Assembly (NCBI GenBank): GCA_021737785.1
Contig: JAIPDI010000004.1
Coordinates: 62,001 to 126,000, forward strand
DNA length: 64,000 nt
Direction: 5' to 3'
DNA from: Deltaproteobacteria bacterium
GTDB lineage: Bacteria > Desulfobacterota > DSM-4660 > Desulfatiglandales > Desulfatiglandaceae
This document shows, one piece after another, positions 23,471 through 38,748 of this stretch (position 1 is its first letter; each line of letters opens with the position of its first letter). Under the pieces are notes generated by a model, which did no database searches, was not told the DNA's origin, and saw only the letters and a program-made list of their open reading frames with translations. The position numbers and the translations under genes were made by a program.

Positions 23471-24344
23471 CTGTCATCTCCCTCCAACTCCAATAGGGAT
23501 GCCCCGGATCACCGTCTGACGCCCACCATTCTTTTCTGTTGACCCGGCTTCTTGCGGCGGTGTCAGGTTGTCGCAGGTGCCAAGCTACAGAGTTATGAAT
23601 TGGCGGAATAAATTGTCAATATGACACTTGTTAAGTATTCATAAATATCTAATATAAACCTATACTAACTAAAAAGCCATATTTCGGATATGATATATGC
23701 AAAAATAAAAATGCCTGTCAAGCAAAAAATCATCGCCATGGATTAGGGCGTTAACTTTGGGTCGAGCTGGCCAGGACAAACGGAATCCGATGCCTGGTAT
23801 GGCAGCCGGCATAACACGCCAGCATCCTCAAGAGCATTTTTGCCACGCCGGGAATCATTCTGGCTGGCATTCGAACGAAAACCGGTAAATTAATGAGTCC
23901 GATATTGATTAGGCGGGTTTAATAAAACTAAATTTAGATATTTTTTTGCGTTACTTTTTTCTTTTAATAGGCAGCCCTGTCTTATGTTTGGATCTCCATT
24001 GTTTGGGTGAATGGTCTTGTCTTAGAGGATGATCACCCCGGAAAGGTCAAAATCCGGGAGGTCCCCATGGCCTTGATATTTGTAGAAGGGCCATGCTCTC
24101 AATAATGGAAGTTCTTTTTAGAGATTAATTGTTATTAATAGTAGTTATTAGGCTTAGACAATTTTTATTTCTAAATACATTGACAACATATGATGCTAGG
24201 TCCTAACATGCGCCTCCAAAAAAAGGCGCTCCACAAAAGGAACCCGCATCATGGACAAACGGCTTTCCTGAGTCCTCAGTTCCATAAAGGTGTTTGATTT
24301 TTGAAAGGACCGATTTTTATAAAACGCAACATGGAGGTCTGGTT
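23471..24344. other. 874-bp divergent intergenic region, partly AT-rich, with clustered hairpins
   Basis: It separates the minus-strand hydroxylase operon from modABC. AT-rich tracts at 23600-23720 and 24110-24190 are probable promoter zones. At 24005-24097 three inverted repeats are packed: GGGTGA/TCACCC (24005-24010 with 24033-24038), CCCGGA/TCCGGG (24037-24042 with 24053-24058) and CATGGCC/GGCCATG (about 24066-24094). I cannot match a ModE box or the Moco riboswitch consensus. Confidence 0.4.
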
Positions 24345-25103
24345 ATGAAAAAATGTTTCTGGTGTTACGTGTTGATCCTGATTTTTTTGTCGGGAAGTGT
24401 TTGCCCAGTTGCCTTTGCCGGGGAGGAAGAATTAACCACATACGTGGCAGCCGGCTTGAAAAAACCGATGGATGTGGTCATCGAGAATTTTCGAAAGGAA
24501 AATGAAAACATCAAGGTGGTAGCCAATTATGCCTCTTCGGGGTCGCTTTATGCCCAGATCAGAGAGGGACAACCCTGCGACCTCTATTTCAGCGCCGACT
24601 GGCTGTATATCGAAAAGATCAAAAAGGATCGGAAACTGGCCGAGGGAATGAAGTTCTTAAAGGACCATGAAGTCCTGATCGTTTCCAAGACAGGAGAAGG
24701 AAAGGTCAAATCCGTCAAGGATTTGACCAGAAAGGGCGTTGTCCTGGTCATTGCCGACCCCCAGGCTCCGAATGGGGCCTATGCGGAGAGGGCCTTGAAA
24801 AACCTGGGCATCTGGGAAGAGATCAATGCCGCGGGCATTTTGAAGGCGCGGCCTTCCACCGTACACCAGGTGGCCATCATGGTGAAGGAAGACCAGGCGG
24901 ACGCGGCCATCATTTTCCAGAGCGTGGCAAAGGGCCATAAACTCAAAATCGTGGAAATGATCTCCCTGGATCTCACCGGTGAGATCATTTTCGCCGCGGC
25001 CATCATCAAGGGCGGGAATCAAAAACTGGCAAAGGAGTTTTACGATTTTGCCCGCCGCCATATAGCGGTGTTTACCCAATACGGATGGCAACCGTATGAA
25101 TAA
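24345..25103 (+). CDS. modA: Molybdate ABC transporter, periplasmic binding protein ModA
   Basis: 252 aa from the ATG at 24345, after GGAGGT. The signal peptide is cleaved near VAFAGEE. The mature protein follows the ModA pattern: LTTYVAAGLKKPMDVVIENF, NYASSGSLYAQIREGQPCDL, ADPQAPNGAYAERALKNLG and STVHQVAIMVKEDQADAAII. These supply the oxyanion-binding Ser and backbone residues for molybdate or tungstate. Its stop overlaps modB by 8 bp. It is the first gene of a modABC operon. Confidence 0.92.
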   Translation: MKKCFWCYVLILIFLSGSVCPVAFAGEEELTTYVAAGLKKPMDVVIENFRKENENIKVVANYASSGSLYAQIREGQPCDLYFSADWLYIEKIKKDRKLAEGMKFLKDHEVLIVSKTGEGKVKSVKDLTRKGVVLVIADPQAPNGAYAERALKNLGIWEEINAAGILKARPSTVHQVAIMVKEDQADAAIIFQSVAKGHKLKIVEMISLDLTGEIIFAAAIIKGGNQKLAKEFYDFARRHIAVFTQYGWQPYE

Positions 25104-25881
25104 ATTGAATAAAAATATCGTTGCGGTGCTTTTCACGCCGCTGTTTTTATTGCTGATCGTTTACCCCCTGATCGCCCTTCTGGCGCGCCTGGAATGGACA
25201 GGCACCCTGAAGACTTTTGCGGACAGCTATTTCTGGTTAAGCGTTCGGAACACCCTTTGTGCCGGCCTGCTGGCCGCCCTTCTAAGTCTGGTCCTGGCCG
25301 TCGGCTTTGGCTATTGCTATCTATTTTTAAGGCACACCCTGATCTACAAGGTGGCCAACTTGATGAATGACCTGCCCATTGCCCTCCCCCATACAGTAGC
25401 CGGTCTGACCCTTCTGATAGCCTTCGGCAGGAAGAACTTCGGTTTTATCGGAGAGACCGGCCTGGCATTCACCCTGGTGGCGGTGGTGCTGGCCATGTTT
25501 TTTGTATCCTATCCGCTGGCGGCCCGGACCGTGGCCTCCGGAATGGACAAAATGGAAACGGAAATGATCGATGTCGCAAGAACTCTGGGAGATACACCGG
25601 TCAAGGCCTACTTTCGGGTGGTCCTCCCCACGCTGGGGGAGGCATTGTTTTCCGGCTTTGTGCTGGCCTTTTCCCGTTCCTTAAGCGAATTCGCCGCTGT
25701 TGTCATGTTCGGGGGGAACTTGCCGGGAAGCACCCAGGTGCTCGCCTCCTATGTCTTTACCAAAGTGGAGGAAGGGGAACTGGAAATGGCGGTCACGGCC
25801 AGCGCCTTTTGTATCTTTCTTTCTCTATTGATTGTGGCGGCCCTGAGCCTGAGGAGGAGGGTGTGGCATGCTAAAGGTTGA
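25096..25881 (+). CDS. modB: Molybdate ABC transporter permease ModB
   Basis: 261 aa with five or six membrane helices. The cytoplasmic EAA loop reads MIDVARTLGDTPVKAYFRVV, the coupling helix for ModC. DLPIALPHTVAGLTLLIAFG resembles ModB/CysT permeases, and the late segment SEFAAVVMFGGNLPGSTQVL is typical of ModB. It overlaps modA by 8 bp and modC by 14 bp. Confidence 0.92.
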   Translation: MNKLNKNIVAVLFTPLFLLLIVYPLIALLARLEWTGTLKTFADSYFWLSVRNTLCAGLLAALLSLVLAVGFGYCYLFLRHTLIYKVANLMNDLPIALPHTVAGLTLLIAFGRKNFGFIGETGLAFTLVAVVLAMFFVSYPLAARTVASGMDKMETEMIDVARTLGDTPVKAYFRVVLPTLGEALFSGFVLAFSRSLSEFAAVVMFGGNLPGSTQVLASYVFTKVEEGELEMAVTASAFCIFLSLLIVAALSLRRRVWHAKG

Positions 25882-26545
25882 AAGGGTTGACAAGAGCTTC
25901 CCCCCCCGACAGGTGCTCCGGGGAGTCTCCCTGACTGTGGATTCTGAAATCAGGGTGATCATCGGCCTGAATGGCGGTGGCAAGTCTACATTGTTGAAGA
26001 TCATAGCAGGGATCTGGGAGGCCGACTCCGGCAATGTCTATATCGACGGCAAAGATGTGACGGACTTAAGCCCGGAAGACCGGGAAATCGGATACGTGCC
26101 TCAGCATCCGGCCCTTTTCAGGCATTTGACCGTGAAGGAAAACATCTATTATGCCCTCAGAAACGGCCGCGGGGCAGTCGAAGAGGGAGACCGATTGACA
26201 AGGATGTTGGGTCTGGGAGAGGTCCTGGACAAGAAGCCCGGCGTTCTGAGCGGGGGCTATCAGAGCCGGGTCTCCTTGGCCAGGGCCCTGGCCTCCCGGC
26301 CGAAGGTCATGCTTTTTGACGAGCCCCTGAGCGACCTGGATCTGGCGATCAAGGAACATCTGCTGCCCGAATTCAAAATGGTGCTGAAGGCACTGGGGAT
26401 GCCGGTTTTATATGTCACTCACGATCCGAGGGAAGCCGGCCTGGTGGGGGACAGTTTTTCGGCCCTGGTACAGGGAGAAATTAAGGAGATTCATTCCGCG
26501 GATGAGGCCTTCGATTTGATCAAAGCCGATTATGTTTCCGGCTGA
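25868..26545 (+). CDS. modC: Molybdate ABC transporter ATPase ModC, without regulatory domain
   Basis: 225 aa, ATPase domain only: Walker [12 protein letters not shown]-loop [10 protein letters not shown], signature [15 protein letters not shown], Walker [13 protein letters not shown] and H-loop YVTHD. Classical ModC is about 350 residues with a C-terminal molybdate-binding MOP domain that inhibits transport. Here it is absent, so feedback control must lie elsewhere. It is the last gene of modABC. Confidence 0.9.
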
Positions 26546-26651
26546 CCGCCGCACGGTGTGGGTAGAGGCGATGGCCCAGGTGAAACGAGGGCAAGGGGAA
26601 CAACTGAAAATCCAAAATTCTAATGATTATCCAATAAAGGAGGATCAGATC

Positions 26652-26790
26652 ATGTTTCATGCGGGAAGTCTGTCTGTTCCATTTGCCCCTATGGAAAAGG
26701 CCTTGGAGGCGAAGTATCCGAACCTTGACCTCCCGCGTGAGCCGAGCGGAAGCCAGAAGACTGCTCGAAATGCGCGTAATCTGGAGATGG
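26652..26790 (+). pseudogene. Remnant of a WtpA/ModA-type tungstate/molybdate-binding protein
   Basis: ATG at 26652 follows AAAGGAGGA and the frame reads [20 protein letters not shown], then [19 protein letters not shown]. The WtpA pattern is [31 protein letters not shown]. After about 45 residues the similarity ends. The same frame runs on into the next gene. It has lost its signal peptide and more than 200 C-terminal residues. The intact ribosome site shows that it is the start of a deleted paralogous transporter gene. Confidence 0.6.
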
Positions 26791-26876: not shown

Positions 26877-27977
26877 ATGAGTGAAAATGAAAGAGACGGC
26901 CTTAACCGAAGGGATTTTCTAAAAAGGACGGGGGCGTTCACCATGGCCACCGGATCGGTTGCGGCCCTGGGGGGCGTTACGCTTGCGCGTGCCGCCACGG
27001 AGACCGATGAGGAGGCGATCAATCGGTATTGGGAAAAAAAGCAGAAGGAGCATGAGGCCGAGGAGGCAGCGGTCCGGAAGCAGTATAAGGCATTCGGTCC
27101 ACCGCAGAAATTCATCTACCGTGGGTCTGACTGGACTGACGACAAGGCGACGTTCTATGCGCCGCTTCAGGAGGAATGTCCGTACCTTCCGGAGTTTCAG
27201 TCCATCTTCACCGAAGGAACGGCAGGTCAGTACTTCAAGTATACTCTCAAATTCGGAATGAAAGACATCATCCGCTTTCACGGCCATTCCTGTGAAGCCT
27301 TGTATTACACGCCGGCCATCCTTCGTCTGATCATTGACAAGATGTTTCCTGACGGCGTTGTGGATCGAACCCTATTGCGGGGTATAGCCGGGCAATCTCC
27401 GTGAATTGCCGATGCGATCGCCTATGTTACAGGCGGCAGGTTCCAGTTTGGAACCTTGAATATCGATCCCAATTTAGGTCATTCAGTCGTGCTGCAGAGG
27501 ATCGACACCGAGGAAACATGGATGGGGGCGTGGAAGGACGGCATTCAATCATGGAATGCCATAAAGGTCTTCGGCACGCCCAACAAGGCAAATCCCTCGC
27601 CCTACAAGAGATGGTCGGCCTGGAAGCATGAGCCGGACACGCCGGAAGTGCAACTGAAGGACTGCAAGATTCAGTGGAAATACGATAAACCTGAGTTGCT
27701 TCAACGACTGAGAGATATTAAGGATAACCTGAAGTATCTTCCCAAAGGACAGAAGCCCACCATCGATCCCAATCAGATCCGGGAGGAATTCACCTGGCTT
27801 CAGTATCGACATCTTCGCGAGGTCTTTAAACACCCCATAGCGGAGAGTTTTCAGATCAAGCGGGTGCCCGGTTATAAATGGGAATATCCCCATTGTGAAC
27901 CCATGTGGGTCCCCCGGCTGGATCAGAAGGCCAAGTGGGCGCCATTTATGGACCACCCGGAACAGCTCGTGGATTAA
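26877..27977 (+). CDS. Tat-exported FmdE-family selenoprotein (in-frame TGA at codon 176)
   Basis: 366 aa if TGA at 27402-27404 is read as selenocysteine. The start ATG follows GGAGG. The Tat signal [12 protein letters not shown] ends near LARAAT, so the product is exported folded. The FmdE domain starts with [13 protein letters not shown] (about residues 138-150); 36 residues after that Cys comes U, followed by [11 protein letters not shown]. In the FmdE protein at 34954 the same position is Cys (ACGTDAIQVLTG, 35 residues after HGHFC). The frame continues for 190 codons with no further stop. Hairpins suited to SECIS function follow the TGA. FmdE domains bind a metal near these Cys residues. 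The alternative is a nonsense mutation; selA/selB are not in the window. Confidence 0.8.
27405..27456 (+). other. Candidate bacterial SECIS element(s) downstream of the TGA
   Basis: Two stem-loops lie within the coding sequence after the TGA. TCGCCT (27418-27423) pairs with AGGCGG (27431-27436) around ATGTTAC. A perfect 8-bp stem, AGGTTCCA (27438-27445) with TGGAACCT (27449-27456), carries the loop GTT. Bacterial SECIS elements have a short stem with a G (often GU) at the start of the loop, usually 16-37 nt after the UGA. The first fits by distance, the second by loop but lies at 41 nt. Confidence 0.5.
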
Positions 27978-28099: not shown

Positions 28100-28284
28100 A
28101 AGGCTGAGCGTGCAGTGGAAGGATGGCCATATTTTCTTTTTTTTGTGACAGAAAACCTGGCCATAAGGCCTGATGAATGAATGCTCCTGTCCCTATTTAT
28201 TGTTTCGGGGACAGGAGCAAGACCACACCATCCACCCCATTGACCTGCAACGGGGGAATATCAGATCTGAAGGAGATCTATATC

Positions 28285-29625
28285 ATGAGGTATACAAGAA
28301 TCCTTTTCGTCATTTTTGTGGTCGCCCTATGTTGGCCCGTAATCGTCAGCGGCGAGGCAAGGGCAGACGCCATATCGGATACTCTCACGGGGATACGTCT
28401 GGGCCCCGGCGAGCTGGATCTGGGAGGCAGTCTTCGGTATCGTTATGAATATCAAAATAATTTCAGCGTCCAGAAATACGGCACGAATCAAACCGATAAT
28501 GTCTTGCTGATGCGGACGAGGATCAATGTAGGCTACCGGCTGCCTCAAAAGGCACGATTTTTTGTGCAATTCCAGGATGCGCGATTCGCCCTCTCTGATC
28601 TGAAAAAAGATAATTTTGGTCCCAACTGCCCTTATTGGAATGAGCTGGATTTGCGCCAGGCATTCTTTGAATGGAGAGAAATCGGAAACTCCCCTTTAGG
28701 CTTCAAGGTCGGAAGACAGGCGATCCAATATGGCGATAACCGGATATTCGGTCCTGGGGGCTGGGGTAATGTGGGCCGCTACACCTGGGATGGGGGGAAG
28801 ATCCTGGTGCAGACCCCGGCGGTGGACGTGGATATCTTTACCGCACAGCGGATACTTTATCAAAAAGATGAATTCGATGACGACCACTTTCCCTATAAGG
28901 TTTATGCTGCGTACGGCCAGATCAAATCGATCCCCAAAAACAAGTTGGATCTCTTCTACGTGGTCAAGTGGGACTCCGACGAAACCACTAAAGGGAAGAC
29001 GGGGGTCGGGGAACTCCTCGTACAAACCGTCGGATTTTATGGGAAAGGAAAATGGAACCGATTCGATTATGCTTCCACCTTTGCCTATCAGTTTGGGGAT
29101 TACGGCAAGGACAACATCAACGCCTTCGGCCTCAATGCAGAGGTCGGATATACGCCTATTGATTTCTGGACCCCGCGGTTTGCCGTTTCTCTGAGTTATG
29201 CCTCCGGAGACAAGGATCCAAACGACGGGACTTACGGGACCTTTGACGGGGTGTTTGGGGCCATCGACATGTATTATGGCCGGATGAACCTCTTTTCCTG
29301 GATGAACCTGATGGACATCCAGGTCGGCGTGAGCGTAAAGCCGGTGGAGAAGATGAAAATATCCCTGGACTACCACAACTTCAGCCTGGCACAGAAAAAA
29401 GACGCCTGGTATTACTGTACAGGGAAAAAGATGCGCTGGGATCCCACCGGCGCGTCCGGGTCCGACCTGGGCAATGAAATCGATCTCGTCTGGCAGTATC
29501 AGATCCATCCCCGCATCGGCCTTATGGCCGGGTGCGCCGCATTTTTTCCGGGGGATTTTGTCGAGGCGACCGGCAGCGACGATAATGCCTATTGGGCCTT
29601 TGGCCAGATTATGATTAAAATCTAG
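28285..29625 (+). CDS. Outer-membrane porin, alginate-export (AlgE-like) family
   Basis: 446 aa from the ATG at 28285, after AAGGAG. The signal peptide is cleaved near GEARADA. The mature chain is beta-strand rich with alternating aromatic residues (GGSLRYRYEYQNNF, GYRLPQKARFFVQFQDARF, VGRQAIQYGDNRIFG) and ends in a hydrophobic strand finishing MIKI. This matches the alginate_exp barrel family, which is broader than alginate and includes uptake channels. Position after the modABC-FmdE genes suggests a role in moving a substrate or metal chelate, but this is inference. Confidence 0.78.
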   Translation: MRYTRILFVIFVVALCWPVIVSGEARADAISDTLTGIRLGPGELDLGGSLRYRYEYQNNFSVQKYGTNQTDNVLLMRTRINVGYRLPQKARFFVQFQDARFALSDLKKDNFGPNCPYWNELDLRQAFFEWREIGNSPLGFKVGRQAIQYGDNRIFGPGGWGNVGRYTWDGGKILVQTPAVDVDIFTAQRILYQKDEFDDDHFPYKVYAAYGQIKSIPKNKLDLFYVVKWDSDETTKGKTGVGELLVQTVGFYGKGKWNRFDYASTFAYQFGDYGKDNINAFGLNAEVGYTPIDFWTPRFAVSLSYASGDKDPNDGTYGTFDGVFGAIDMYYGRMNLFSWMNLMDIQVGVSVKPVEKMKISLDYHNFSLAQKKDAWYYCTGKKMRWDPTGASGSDLGNEIDLVWQYQIHPRIGLMAGCAAFFPGDFVEATGSDDNAYWAFGQIMIKI

Positions 29626-34953: not shown

Positions 34954-35559
34954 ATGAATGCAGATAAAATCATGGAGCAGGAAGACTTCAGGCGGTGCGC
35001 CGAGTTCCACGGGCACTTTTGCCCCGGACTGGCCATCGGGTACCGGGCCGGCAAAGCGGCCCTTGAATGGCTTGCAGAGAGGAGGGCCCCGGATGAGGAA
35101 ATCGTGGCCACCGTGGAGACCAATGCCTGCGGAACAGACGCCATTCAGGTCCTGACCGGATGCACCCTGGGCAAGGGAAACCTTCTCTGCAGGGATCAGG
35201 GGAAACACGCGTATACGATCGTAAGCCGAAAAACAGGGGAGGGGGTCCGCATCGCCCTGCTCCATGGCGTCATGAACCTGAATGATCGACACCTGGACCT
35301 GATTCAGAAGATCAGGGAGGATCGGGCCACGCCGGAGGAGAAGAGCGAATTTCAGGCGCTTCACCTGAATAAAGGACGGGAACTCCTGGAAACGCCCCTG
35401 GAAGCGCTTTTTTCGATCCGGAAAACCAGCACACCTGTCCCTGAAAAGGCCGTCATCGAGCCTTCCAGGCCGTGCGACCGCTGCGGGGAACCTGCCATGA
35501 TATCCAGGATGGTGACCGTCGACGGCCGGACATTGTGCGGGGACTGTGCGGAATCATGA
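34954..35559 (+). CDS. FmdE-family protein with C-terminal zinc ribbon
   Basis: 201 aa, cytoplasmic. FmdE domain: FHGHFCPGLAIGYRAGKAAL (about residues 18-37) and ETNACGTDAIQVLTGCTLGK (about 69-88). The His and Cys residues form the family's metal site. The C-terminal ribbon is CDRCGEPA plus LCGDCAES. The founding member belongs to molybdenum formylmethanofuran dehydrogenase operons, but bacterial copies commonly lie beside metal transporters. The stop overlaps the ABC permease start (ATGA), so the protein is tightly coupled to that importer, perhaps as a metal-handling partner. Confidence 0.88.
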   Translation: MNADKIMEQEDFRRCAEFHGHFCPGLAIGYRAGKAALEWLAERRAPDEEIVATVETNACGTDAIQVLTGCTLGKGNLLCRDQGKHAYTIVSRKTGEGVRIALLHGVMNLNDRHLDLIQKIREDRATPEEKSEFQALHLNKGRELLETPLEALFSIRKTSTPVPEKAVIEPSRPCDRCGEPAMISRMVTVDGRTLCGDCAES

Positions 35560-36659
35560 TCCATGCAGACGAGACGGAAACCGGGACCGGGAGTTCGCTG
35601 ACAGCCTCCTACAAGGGGGTCTTGCGACAGAAAACGATGTTCTTTTTTGCCCTGCTGGCGCTCCTGGGAATATTGGCCGTCTACGCCATTGCGGCCGGAA
35701 CCTATGACCTGTCGCCGCTGAAGGTTATCCGGTCCCTGTTGGGGTACGAGAAAGGGGCTGCCGACATCGTAATCTGGAATATCCGGATGCCCAGAATCGT
35801 GGCAGCCATCGTGGCCGGATGGGGCCTGGCCATCTCCGGCGTGGCCATGCAGTGCCTCCTCAGAAATCCCCTCGGTTCTCCCTTTACCCTGGGAATCAGC
35901 CATGGGGCCGCTTTTGGCGCGGCCCTCGCCATTGTTGTCCTGGGAGGGGGCGCGACCCAGAGCAGTGTCCTGAGGACCACGGCCTCAAACCTGATATTTG
36001 TCGAGAACATCGTCTCCGTCACCTTCTTTGCATTTTTGGGGGCCATGGCGGCCACGCTGGTGATCCTGGCCCTCTCCAGGATGAAGCGGCTCTCGCCCGG
36101 TTCCATTATCCTGGCCGGGGTTGCCCTCTCCTCCCTCTTTGTCTCAGGGACCATCCTGATCCAGTATTTTGCCACAGAGGTGGAGATCGCCACCATTGTC
36201 TTCTGGACCTTTGGGGATGTCTCCCGATCGAGTTGGAAGGAGATCGGCGTGATGACCGCGGCGTCGGCAGGGGTCACCGTCTATTTTGTCCTGAACCGAT
36301 GGCGGTTGAATGCCCTCTCCTCAGGGGAGGACGTGGCCAGGGGGATCGGGGTGGATGTGGAGAGGGTGCGATTGTGGGGCATGCTCATGGCCGCGCTGAT
36401 CGCGGCCCTGGTGACCGCCTTTCACGGGGTTATCGCCTTTCTGGGTCTTCTGGCCCCCCATATTGCCCGGCGCATGGTGGGGGCGGATCATCGTCTCTTG
36501 ATCCCCTTTGCCTCCATAGTGGGTGCCCTCCTCCTGCTTTTGGCGGACACGGTGGGCCGGATCCTGATAGGCTCCGGGACCCTTCCCGTAGGCGTCCTCA
36601 CCTCTTTTATGGGTGCGCCGCTCTTTCTCTATCTTCTCACAAGGGGGTACGGAAAATGA
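35556..36659 (+). CDS. FecCD-type ABC transporter permease
   Basis: 367 aa from the ATG at 35556 overlapping the FmdE stop. About ten membrane helices. IRMPRIVAAIVAGWGLAISG and MQCLLRNPLGSPFTLGISHG are hallmark sequences of the BtuC/FecCD family (R-x-P-R and NPL-x-xP-x-xLG). FHGVIAFLGLLAPHIARRMV and GTLPVGVLTSFMGAPLFLYL complete the match. These permeases import iron siderophores, haem, cobalamin or, in MolBC, molybdate. The stop overlaps the ATPase start. Confidence 0.92.
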   Translation: MIHADETETGTGSSLTASYKGVLRQKTMFFFALLALLGILAVYAIAAGTYDLSPLKVIRSLLGYEKGAADIVIWNIRMPRIVAAIVAGWGLAISGVAMQCLLRNPLGSPFTLGISHGAAFGAALAIVVLGGGATQSSVLRTTASNLIFVENIVSVTFFAFLGAMAATLVILALSRMKRLSPGSIILAGVALSSLFVSGTILIQYFATEVEIATIVFWTFGDVSRSSWKEIGVMTAASAGVTVYFVLNRWRLNALSSGEDVARGIGVDVERVRLWGMLMAALIAALVTAFHGVIAFLGLLAPHIARRMVGADHRLLIPFASIVGALLLLLADTVGRILIGSGTLPVGVLTSFMGAPLFLYLLTRGYGK

Positions 36660-37435
36660 TGCTTACCATTGCCGGGATCGAGTTCAGCTACAACAGCCAC
36701 CCTGTCCTGAGCAACATCCATCTGGAGCTGGATCGTGGTTCCATCCTGGCCGTGCTGGGGGTGAACGGGGCCGGAAAATCCACCTTTCTGAAGTGTATCA
36801 ACCGGATTCTCCATGTCAGGAAGGGAGCCGTCGGTCTTCACGGTGAAGATGTCCTCCGCATGAAAGGGGAGGAAATTGCGAGACATATGGGATATGTGCC
36901 CCAGAGATACGGCGAAGAGGAACTGACGGTTTTTGATGCGGTTCTCCTGGGGCGAACGCCCTACGTGAAATGGAAGGCCGATGAAACGGATTTCACGGTT
37001 GTTGAAACCACCCTCAAACAGATGGGACTGGAGGCCCTTGCCATGAGGCCGGTGAGCACCCTCAGCGGCGGCGAGATGCAGAAGGTGGTCCTGGCCAGGG
37101 CCCTGGCCCAGGAGCCGGACCTCCTTCTGCTGGACGAGCCCACCAGTAATCTGGACCTCAAGAACCAGTTGGAGGTCATGGGTCTGGTCCAAACGGCCGT
37201 CAGAAAACGGGGGTTGTCTGCCATCGTCTGTCTGCATGATATCAATCTCGCCTTGCGATACGCCGACCGTTTTCTGATGCTCAGAGACGGCAGGGTCCAT
37301 ACCCAGGGGGGCAGGGCCGCGGTGACCCCGGAGGCGATCCATCAGGTTTATGGGGTCCGGGTGATCTTGGGCGAGGTACAGGGATACCCTATTGTTGTGG
37401 CCCTGAATGGAAACGGAGGGAAGCCGGTGAGCTGA
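36656..37435 (+). CDS. FecE-type ABC transporter ATPase
   Basis: 259 aa from ATG at 36656. Walker A GVNGAGKSTF, Q-loop GYVPQRYGEEELTVFD, signature LSGGEMQKVVLARAL, Walker B LLLLDEPTSNLDL and H-loop CLHDINLALRYADRF. It groups with FepC/BtuD/MolC-type ATPases that pair with FecCD permeases. The reading frame is open well upstream, but that part is a shadow of the permease gene. Confidence 0.92.
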   Translation: MMLTIAGIEFSYNSHPVLSNIHLELDRGSILAVLGVNGAGKSTFLKCINRILHVRKGAVGLHGEDVLRMKGEEIARHMGYVPQRYGEEELTVFDAVLLGRTPYVKWKADETDFTVVETTLKQMGLEALAMRPVSTLSGGEMQKVVLARALAQEPDLLLLDEPTSNLDLKNQLEVMGLVQTAVRKRGLSAIVCLHDINLALRYADRFLMLRDGRVHTQGGRAAVTPEAIHQVYGVRVILGEVQGYPIVVALNGNGGKPVS

Positions 37436-37640
37436 TGAGCTGATAAGCTGATGAGCTATTAGGTCGGGATAGAAACGTTTTAAAGAACGAACGTCCAACG
37501 TCGAACGTCCAACATGGAACATCGAATGAACCACAACGAATGGCCAACGACTCATGCCCGAGCAAGGGTTCATAAGGGCTTGCCAGCTTATCAGCTCACA
37601 GGCTCAATAGCTCACCAGCGCAGTTGCTTATCAGTCTTTT
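37429..37640. repeat. Repeat island with inverted outer arms between ATPase and binding-protein genes
   Basis: The left arm (37429-37462) is built of GAGCTGATAAGCTGATGAGC-like words. The right arm (about 37578-37634) carries the reverse complement, as in GCCAGCTTATCAGCTCA. The centre (37486-37535) repeats GAACGTCCAACGTCGAACGTCC. The island starts inside the last codons of the ATPase gene. It could fold into a long imperfect hairpin in the operon transcript. Confidence 0.75.
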
Positions 37641-37659
37641 TACGAAAAGGAGATAAAGG

Positions 37660-38748
37660 ATGAAAAAACCTTCATGCATTTTTCTGTTGTGCTGCATGGC
37701 AGCCCTTGCATCCCTGTGGGCTGTGGGCCTGGCAATGGCCGGTGATTCCATGACCGTTACCGACATGGAAGGCCGGAAGGTTGCGGTCCCAGCGGATCCG
37801 AACCGCGTCATCGCCATCGGACCCGGGACACTCCGAATTTTGTGCTATCTGGAAGCAAAAGAGAAGATCGCCGGAATCGAAAACTTTGAAAATGTCCGTA
37901 CACAGGGCCGACCCTACTGGATTGCCAGTCCCGAGCTTAAAGATCTTCCGGTGATCGGTCCCGGCGGCCCCCAGCACCTGAACAAGGAGCCCGACCTCGA
38001 GGCGGTCCTCAAGGTCAACCCCGATGTGATCTTCGCCACCTATATGAAACCCGCTACAGCCGATGCCCTTCAGAAAAAAATCGGTATCCCGGTGGTGATC
38101 CTCACCTATGGGCGGTTTCCAGCCTTCAACGAGAGGCTCTATGATTCCCTCAGACTGGCCGGCAAGATCCTGGGAAAGGAGGCTCGTGCTGAAGCGGTCG
38201 TAGACTTTATTGAGGGCGCGAAAAAGGACCTCCTGAAAAGAACCGACGGCATCGACCCTTCCAGGAAGCCCAGGGTCTACATCGGGGGGGTTGGTTTCAG
38301 GGGGGTTCAGGGCATCGAGAGTACGGATCCAGACTACATTCCCCTGGAGTGGGTCCGGGCCGACAATATCGCGGCCGGTGCATCCGGGGAAAACCACCTC
38401 TTTATCGACAGGGAAAAACTCCTCATGTGGGACCCGGACGTCATCTTCGTGGACGCCGGCGGATACGGCCTCATTAAGCAGGATTTTGAAAAAAAGTCCA
38501 AATTCTATCAATCCCTGAAGGCCTTTCAAAACGGCCGTGTCTACGTACTCCTCCCGTTCATCTACTACGTAGCCAATATCGGGACGGCCGTGGCCGATGC
38601 CTATGGGGCAGGCAAGATTCTTTATCCCGAGCGTTTTCAGGATATCGACCTTGCAGAAAAGGCGGACGAGATCTATACCTTCCTTGTGGGGGCCCCGGCA
38701 TACAAAAAGATGGTCCGTGACTTCGGTCCCCTCGGAGCCCCTTTTTAG
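37660..38748 (+). CDS. FecB/BtuF-type periplasmic substrate-binding protein
   Basis: 362 aa, AAGGAGATAAAGG before the start. The signal peptide is cleaved near LAMAGDS. The helical-backbone binding-protein fold is seen as MTVTDMEGRKVAVPADPNRV, VIGPGGPQHLNKEPDLEAVL, VNPDVIFATYMKP and WDPDVIFVDAGGYG. It completes an FmdE-permease-ATPase-binding-protein operon. The MolA-type molybdate/tungstate proteins and siderophore binders share this fold, so the ligand cannot be settled here. Confidence 0.9.
   Translation: MKKPSCIFLLCCMAALASLWAVGLAMAGDSMTVTDMEGRKVAVPADPNRVIAIGPGTLRILCYLEAKEKIAGIENFENVRTQGRPYWIASPELKDLPVIGPGGPQHLNKEPDLEAVLKVNPDVIFATYMKPATADALQKKIGIPVVILTYGRFPAFNERLYDSLRLAGKILGKEARAEAVVDFIEGAKKDLLKRTDGIDPSRKPRVYIGGVGFRGVQGIESTDPDYIPLEWVRADNIAAGASGENHLFIDREKLLMWDPDVIFVDAGGYGLIKQDFEKKSKFYQSLKAFQNGRVYVLLPFIYYVANIGTAVADAYGAGKILYPERFQDIDLAEKADEIYTFLVGAPAYKKMVRDFGPLGAPF

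Follow-up and report, generated by a model that had tools for sequence, protein, structure and literature searches.

The locus and its reading frame

The window, by which we mean the whole 64,000-nt stretch analysed, from a bacterium of sulfate-reducer type and with coordinates counted from its first letter, carries a gene of the FmdE family (PF02663) with a TGA in its reading frame, preceded by a modABC-like operon and followed by a porin gene. The features of this region, with the basis for each in brackets, are:

24294-25103, + strand: ModA-type molybdate/tungstate-binding protein (TIGR01256, over cut-off)
25096-25881, + strand: ModB-type permease (profile matches)
25868-26545, + strand: ModC/WtpC-type ATPase without a TOBE domain (profile matches)
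26649-26786, + strand: short relic of another oxyanion-binding protein, between the ModC and FmdE genes (46 residues align at 48% identity with the SBP of L040:4642-5613)
26877-27977, + strand: putative Tat-exported FmdE-family gene of the selenocysteine type, 366 aa when the TGA is read as Sec (translation, PF02663 profile, alignment)
26877-26993, + strand: predicted Tat signal peptide region with an RRDFLKRTG motif and a cleavage region of the A-R-A/A type (sequence; TIGR matches below cut-off)
27276-27293, + strand: FHGHSC metal-binding motif, residues 134-139 with H135, H137 and C139 (aligned with His15, His17 and Cys19 of DSY1837/2GLZ)
27402-27404, + strand: TGA codon within the frame, proposed to encode Sec176, at the position of the fourth metal ligand (L012 likewise has TGA; the remaining intact homologues read have Cys)
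27411-27413, + strand: Asp179, invariant, equivalent of Asp58 in 2GLZ (alignment)
27438-27456, + strand: candidate SECIS-like hairpin AGGUUCCA-GUU-UGGAACCU, 8 bp, with its loop 41 nt after the TGA, a non-standard spacing (hairpin search, comparison with L012 and L013)
28177-29625, + strand: outer-membrane porin of the Alginate_exp family, downstream of the FmdE gene (profile match)

Translation of 26877-27977 yields 366 residues followed by TAA, and the TGA at codon 176 is the sole internal stop, in agreement with the preliminary description of a single in-frame TGA inside an otherwise continuous 366-codon gene. A good ribosome-binding-like site, AAATGGAGGAAACGGT, lies immediately 5' of the ATG. 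The PF02663 profile match spans the TGA (residues 134-231; score 49 bits, cut-off 22.9), and a scan of the whole genome with this profile recovers the same gene, flagged with one TGA inside the match. Standard gene calling splits the gene in two, so proteins of this kind are overlooked in MAG annotation.

The window contains another FmdE gene at 34954-35559, and alignment (CGTDAI against UIADAI) places its Cys on the TGA column, as had been proposed. The accompanying claim that 35-36 residues separate the HGHxC motif from the Cys or Sec was right for this protein, with 36 counted from the motif Cys, but not for the TGA gene, in which C139 to U176 is 37. The same distance is 36 in 2GLZ and 41 in 2GVI; since it varies from 36 to 41 among FmdE proteins, the alignment is diagnostic and the spacing is not. 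This second FmdE, which has a zinc finger, is followed (34954-38748 in all) by a FecCD/BtuCD-like permease, an ATPase and a binding protein, as judged by eye, a further case of FmdE next to genes for ABC uptake.

Cys/TGA exchange and selection among relatives

Relatives were gathered by related-locus and genome searches, and comprise L012, L013 (the same as G072) and more distant exported FmdE proteins. Searching at class level yielded no genomes beyond those obtained at order level. L012, from the Desulfobacterales MAG SV3-B15.1, is 75% identical to the window gene and has a TGA at the same codon with no other internal stop, so the window TGA is not a chance event. L013, at 67% identity, has TGC in the codon-176 column, as do all 13 of the further intact homologues read (L018 and L049-L060; TGC or TGT); the lone exception among homologues read for that codon is the pseudogene L048. 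An alignment of 15 FmdE proteins, the other one of the window included, has just seven invariant columns: H135, G136, C139, C/U176, D179, T185 and G186. The exchange between Cys and TGA among close relatives, set beforehand as the test of the proposal, is thus confined to one clean column with no random mix of stops, and on these alignments it would not be credible that chance nonsense mutations struck this column in two diverged genes.

The two TGA genes are the only ones known, both from fragmented assemblies. With L013 they form a firm clade (100/99), a tree that either one gain of Sec with a reversion or two separate gains would fit. FmdE is present in 283 of the 395 sampled genomes of the phylum; of the matches listed from the PF02663 scan of these 395 genomes, which are the higher-scoring ones, none contains an internal stop, and Sec forms may occur at lower scores.

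Comparison of the window gene with L012 gives a pS of about 0.8, close to saturation, and a dN of 0.098 before the TGA and 0.081 after it. The stretch 3' of the TGA is under the same strong purifying selection as the stretch 5' of it, which bears out the earlier observation that 190 family-like codons follow the TGA. The first 20 of these codons behave differently at synonymous sites: pS drops there to 0.28 for the two TGA genes, versus 0.66-0.67 in the two TGA-Cys comparisons, and for the TGA pair this stretch differs from the rest of the gene with a Fisher p of 6e-5. It is among the most conserved parts of the gene in the TGA pair and among the most divergent in the comparison of the window gene with the Cys gene. 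This confinement of low pS to the TGA pair matches the expectation for an RNA element within the coding region.

Candidate SECIS element

The published bSECIS model has a loop of the form N1-G-[G/U]-N-N2 at a usual spacing of 16-37 nt after the UGA, and a 2026 review of prokaryotic selenoproteins notes that some bSECIS elements fall outside this model. We sought a canonical element at 16-37 nt in both TGA genes and found one in neither. The best hairpin fits the model in its loop (A-GUU-U) and 8-bp stem but not in its 41-nt spacing; the loop in this genome's formate-dehydrogenase-type genes is GGUCU, with a spacing of about 18 nt. In L012, 18 of the 19 bases of the hairpin are identical and pairing is kept (9 bp including one G-U), the hairpin is missing from the Cys gene L013, and only 0.8% of synonymous shuffles equal its score. 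Given the off-model spacing, either the SECIS element is unusual or the true element is a different one. In a nearer hairpin (spacing 19) the first G comes only at loop position 3, and L012 has none. Folds of 50 nt from the two TGA genes are no more stable than shuffles (z of 0.2 and 0.1) and those of 60 nt are somewhat stabler (z of -2.2 and -1.8); folding energy alone was dropped as evidence for a SECIS because the Cys gene L013 folds well too (z of -2.5, for a stretch starting 15 nt past the Cys codon).

Selenocysteine machinery and reading of the UGA

The machinery for selenocysteine, whose absence from the genome would have spoken against the proposal, is complete: tRNA-Sec (73.6 bits, anticodon TCA), SelB (397 bits), SelA (617 bits) and SelD (373 bits), the last itself with a TGA, accompanied by four formate-dehydrogenase-type matches with a TGA. 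A tRNA-Sec is also present in the L012 genome and in 7/7 genomes checked. From the comparative sequence evidence we consider it very probable that the UGA at codon 176 encodes selenocysteine; SelA, SelB, SelD and tRNA-Sec would then read it to give the full 366-residue protein.

Three other readings of this UGA have to be weighed. Genes of this group do decay. The pseudogene G305 (L048/L074, at L074:7800-8650) has TAA in the Cys/Sec column and two TAG stops, one replacing a conserved Trp and the other within the signal region; its TAA was rejected as a recoding site because of these two further stops, although, TGA to TAA being a single step, G305 may be a decayed Sec gene. Other decayed copies, with an internal deletion and the C-terminal end kept, stand beside TupA-like genes at L014:3150-3480/L040 and L015:5930-6123, that of L014 retaining the Tat region as well. 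That the window TGA is likewise a real nonsense mutation in a decaying gene is nevertheless highly improbable, since two 75%-identical genes near synonymous saturation share one TGA, neither has another internal stop or a frameshift, dN after the TGA is as low as 0.08, and the column is otherwise an invariant Cys. We give still less credence to a split gene, with translation ending at the TGA and another polypeptide initiated from TTG 27456: a 173-aa ORF does begin at this TTG, which has a counterpart in the same position in L012, but such a start would lose the invariant D179, T185 and G186, and the Cys relatives read straight through. The unusual spacing of the hairpin could instead mean that the UGA is decoded inefficiently or under regulation, with the fragment as the main product when selenium is scarce; as that 175-residue fragment would have only three of the ligands and a minor part of the fold, and the rest of the protein is strongly conserved, we regard this as quite unlikely.

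The 119 families in a 2026 catalogue of prokaryotic selenoproteins do not include FmdE (PMC13188914), so the suggestion that the family is undescribed as a selenoprotein stands on what could be checked. Among open-access papers, a full-text search for FmdE with selenoprotein gave only a methanogen genome review, and a search by phrase for an FmdE family or domain found none. The gene would thus represent a real, probably new selenoprotein family inside a known fold family and, as far as could be checked, the first selenocysteine form of FmdE, a widespread family.

Metal site, fold and predicted export

In the crystal structure 2GLZ a metal (Zn/Ni) is held by His15, His17, Cys19 and Cys55, and in 2GVI by the equivalent residues, whereas 3D00 lacks two of the ligands and the metal (PMC2954224). 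Although a single-protein phmmer search against the PDB gave no match, a profile built from 15 homologues matched the FmdE structures, and in the profile alignment U176 falls on Cys55 of 2GLZ with the other three ligands conserved. An AlphaFold2 model, calculated with Cys in place of Sec, has a mean pLDDT of 71.9 (mostly 80-92 in the core) and matches 3D00, 2GLZ and 2GVI with Z of 11.9, 11.0 and 10.8, the next row standing at 3.6; at the level of this predicted model, the FmdE core fold is confirmed for the product of the TGA gene. Sec176 is likely to be a metal ligand, and would be the fourth beside His135, His137 and Cys139, adjoining the invariant Asp179. Its position exactly on the fourth ligand suggests that the residue is chemically active and not merely structural. 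We are confident, though short of certain, that this gene is a selenoprotein with Sec at its metal site.

The Tat motif makes it likely that the protein is exported. Tat profiles match below cut-off (TIGR02811 formate_TAT at 26.8 bits; TIGR01409 at 14.1 against 16.7), and the 67% identical L013 passes TIGR01409 at 21.3 bits. With a Tat signal, the protein would fold, and probably take up its metal, in the cytoplasm before export.

Gene neighbourhood and possible function

Directly upstream of the L012 FmdE gene lie ModA (over cut-off), ModB and a ModC with TOBE domain. Identity between this modABC and that of the window is just 30% or so, which means that their pairing with FmdE does not simply reflect shared descent of one operon. 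Related loci also contain transport genes: MOT1 is found near the L013 gene (L036), a divergent modABC-like set adjoins L075, an ABC ATPase adjoins L037 and L074, and TupA-like proteins adjoin L040, L015, L085 and L086. The formate dehydrogenase-like genes at L036:3707-6514 and L085:3702-6536, both near exported FmdE, contain a TGA in frame (HCART-U-HAPTVAG), and a porin 37% identical to that of the window lies near the decayed copy in L040.

Some of these loci have further features of their own. Exported FmdE occurs with a TupA-like protein at L085:6664-16001 and L086:47-5512, as does an FmdE remnant at L015:1067-5927, and these loci variously contain a TonB-dependent receptor and genes that look by eye like ExbB, ExbD and TonB, a possible TonB-dependent W/Mo uptake system. 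An unusual fusion of Oxidored_molyb and tetrapyrrole methylase domains lies beside the TupA/TonB genes at L015:3125-4897 and L085:12392-14197. Another exported FmdE branch (L078, L079, L080, L082 and L083) stands beside ArsR-like, ArsP or TauE/SafE permease genes, neighbours that suggest a metalloid or sulfur-oxyanion role for it.

Because both TGA genes come right after a modABC-like operon and relatives lie near Mo/W uptake genes, we infer, tentatively and at somewhat less than even confidence, a periplasmic role in the acquisition of Mo/W or a linked metal. The protein would bind or chemically handle molybdate or tungstate (or a linked metal or thio-form) in the periplasm and so support uptake. 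In a fuller and more doubtful version, a periplasmic selenoenzyme or carrier with Sec as ligand, made by means of the SECIS at 41-nt spacing, would capture or transform molybdate or tungstate ahead of the ABC transporter. In sulfidic water its substrates might include thiomolybdate or thiotungstate; if true, this would tie selenium to Mo/W acquisition in a new way. As other exported FmdE branches adjoin ArsP/TauE permeases, a Mo/W role may not be general, but the recurring Mo/W-transport neighbourhood gives this exported branch a testable function.

Redox catalysis is the presumed role of many selenoproteins (PMC13188914), and the gene neighbourhood is circumstantial. The TGA protein might have Sec as proposed but work as an enzyme of thiol/selenol redox chemistry, directed for instance at oxidants or metalloids, with no part in Mo/W handling. 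The ArsR/ArsP and TauE neighbours of a sister group would agree with this; residue 176 is in neither a UxxC nor a CxxU motif, however, and both TGA loci have modABC neighbours despite the low identity of the operons, and we hold such an enzyme to be rather unlikely. It is less probable again that FmdE senses metal in the periplasm or serves as a chaperone to formate dehydrogenase or other Mo/W enzymes. This reading would suit the Sec formate dehydrogenase-like genes close to two FmdE genes, the Cys-type one in L036 and another exported one in L085, as well as the name of PF02663, which derives from formylmethanofuran dehydrogenase operons (PMC2954224); against it, the protein is without a sensor domain and the ORFs checked beside the two TGA genes include no formate dehydrogenase.

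Comparison with known systems

The TGA protein shares with the FmdE structures DSY1837/2GLZ, TA1109/2GVI and SYN_00638/3D00 the core fold, the HGHxC + C/U + D motif and four ligand positions. It differs from them in having a proposed Sec for Cys55, a predicted Tat signal with a long N-terminal extension, and a long C-terminal extension without an assigned family in addition to lacking the C-terminal zinc finger. The exported Cys-type FmdE proteins (L013/L036, L018/L037, L020/L038 and L049/L075) have the core motif and an N-terminal signal region in common with it, and several adjoin Mo/W-type transport genes; L013 shares its full architecture, whereas the distant ones are shorter, and all have Cys for Sec. 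In formate dehydrogenase, SelD and [NiFeSe] hydrogenase, too, UGA stands for an active-site residue in whose place relatives have Cys, and Sec binds metal in hydrogenase and formate dehydrogenase (PMC13188914), but their fold is different from that of FmdE, and the SECIS-like hairpin of the TGA gene has a longer spacing. The FmdB-family selenoprotein of the catalogue (TIGR02605) resembles FmdE in name only, its family being distinct from PF02663.
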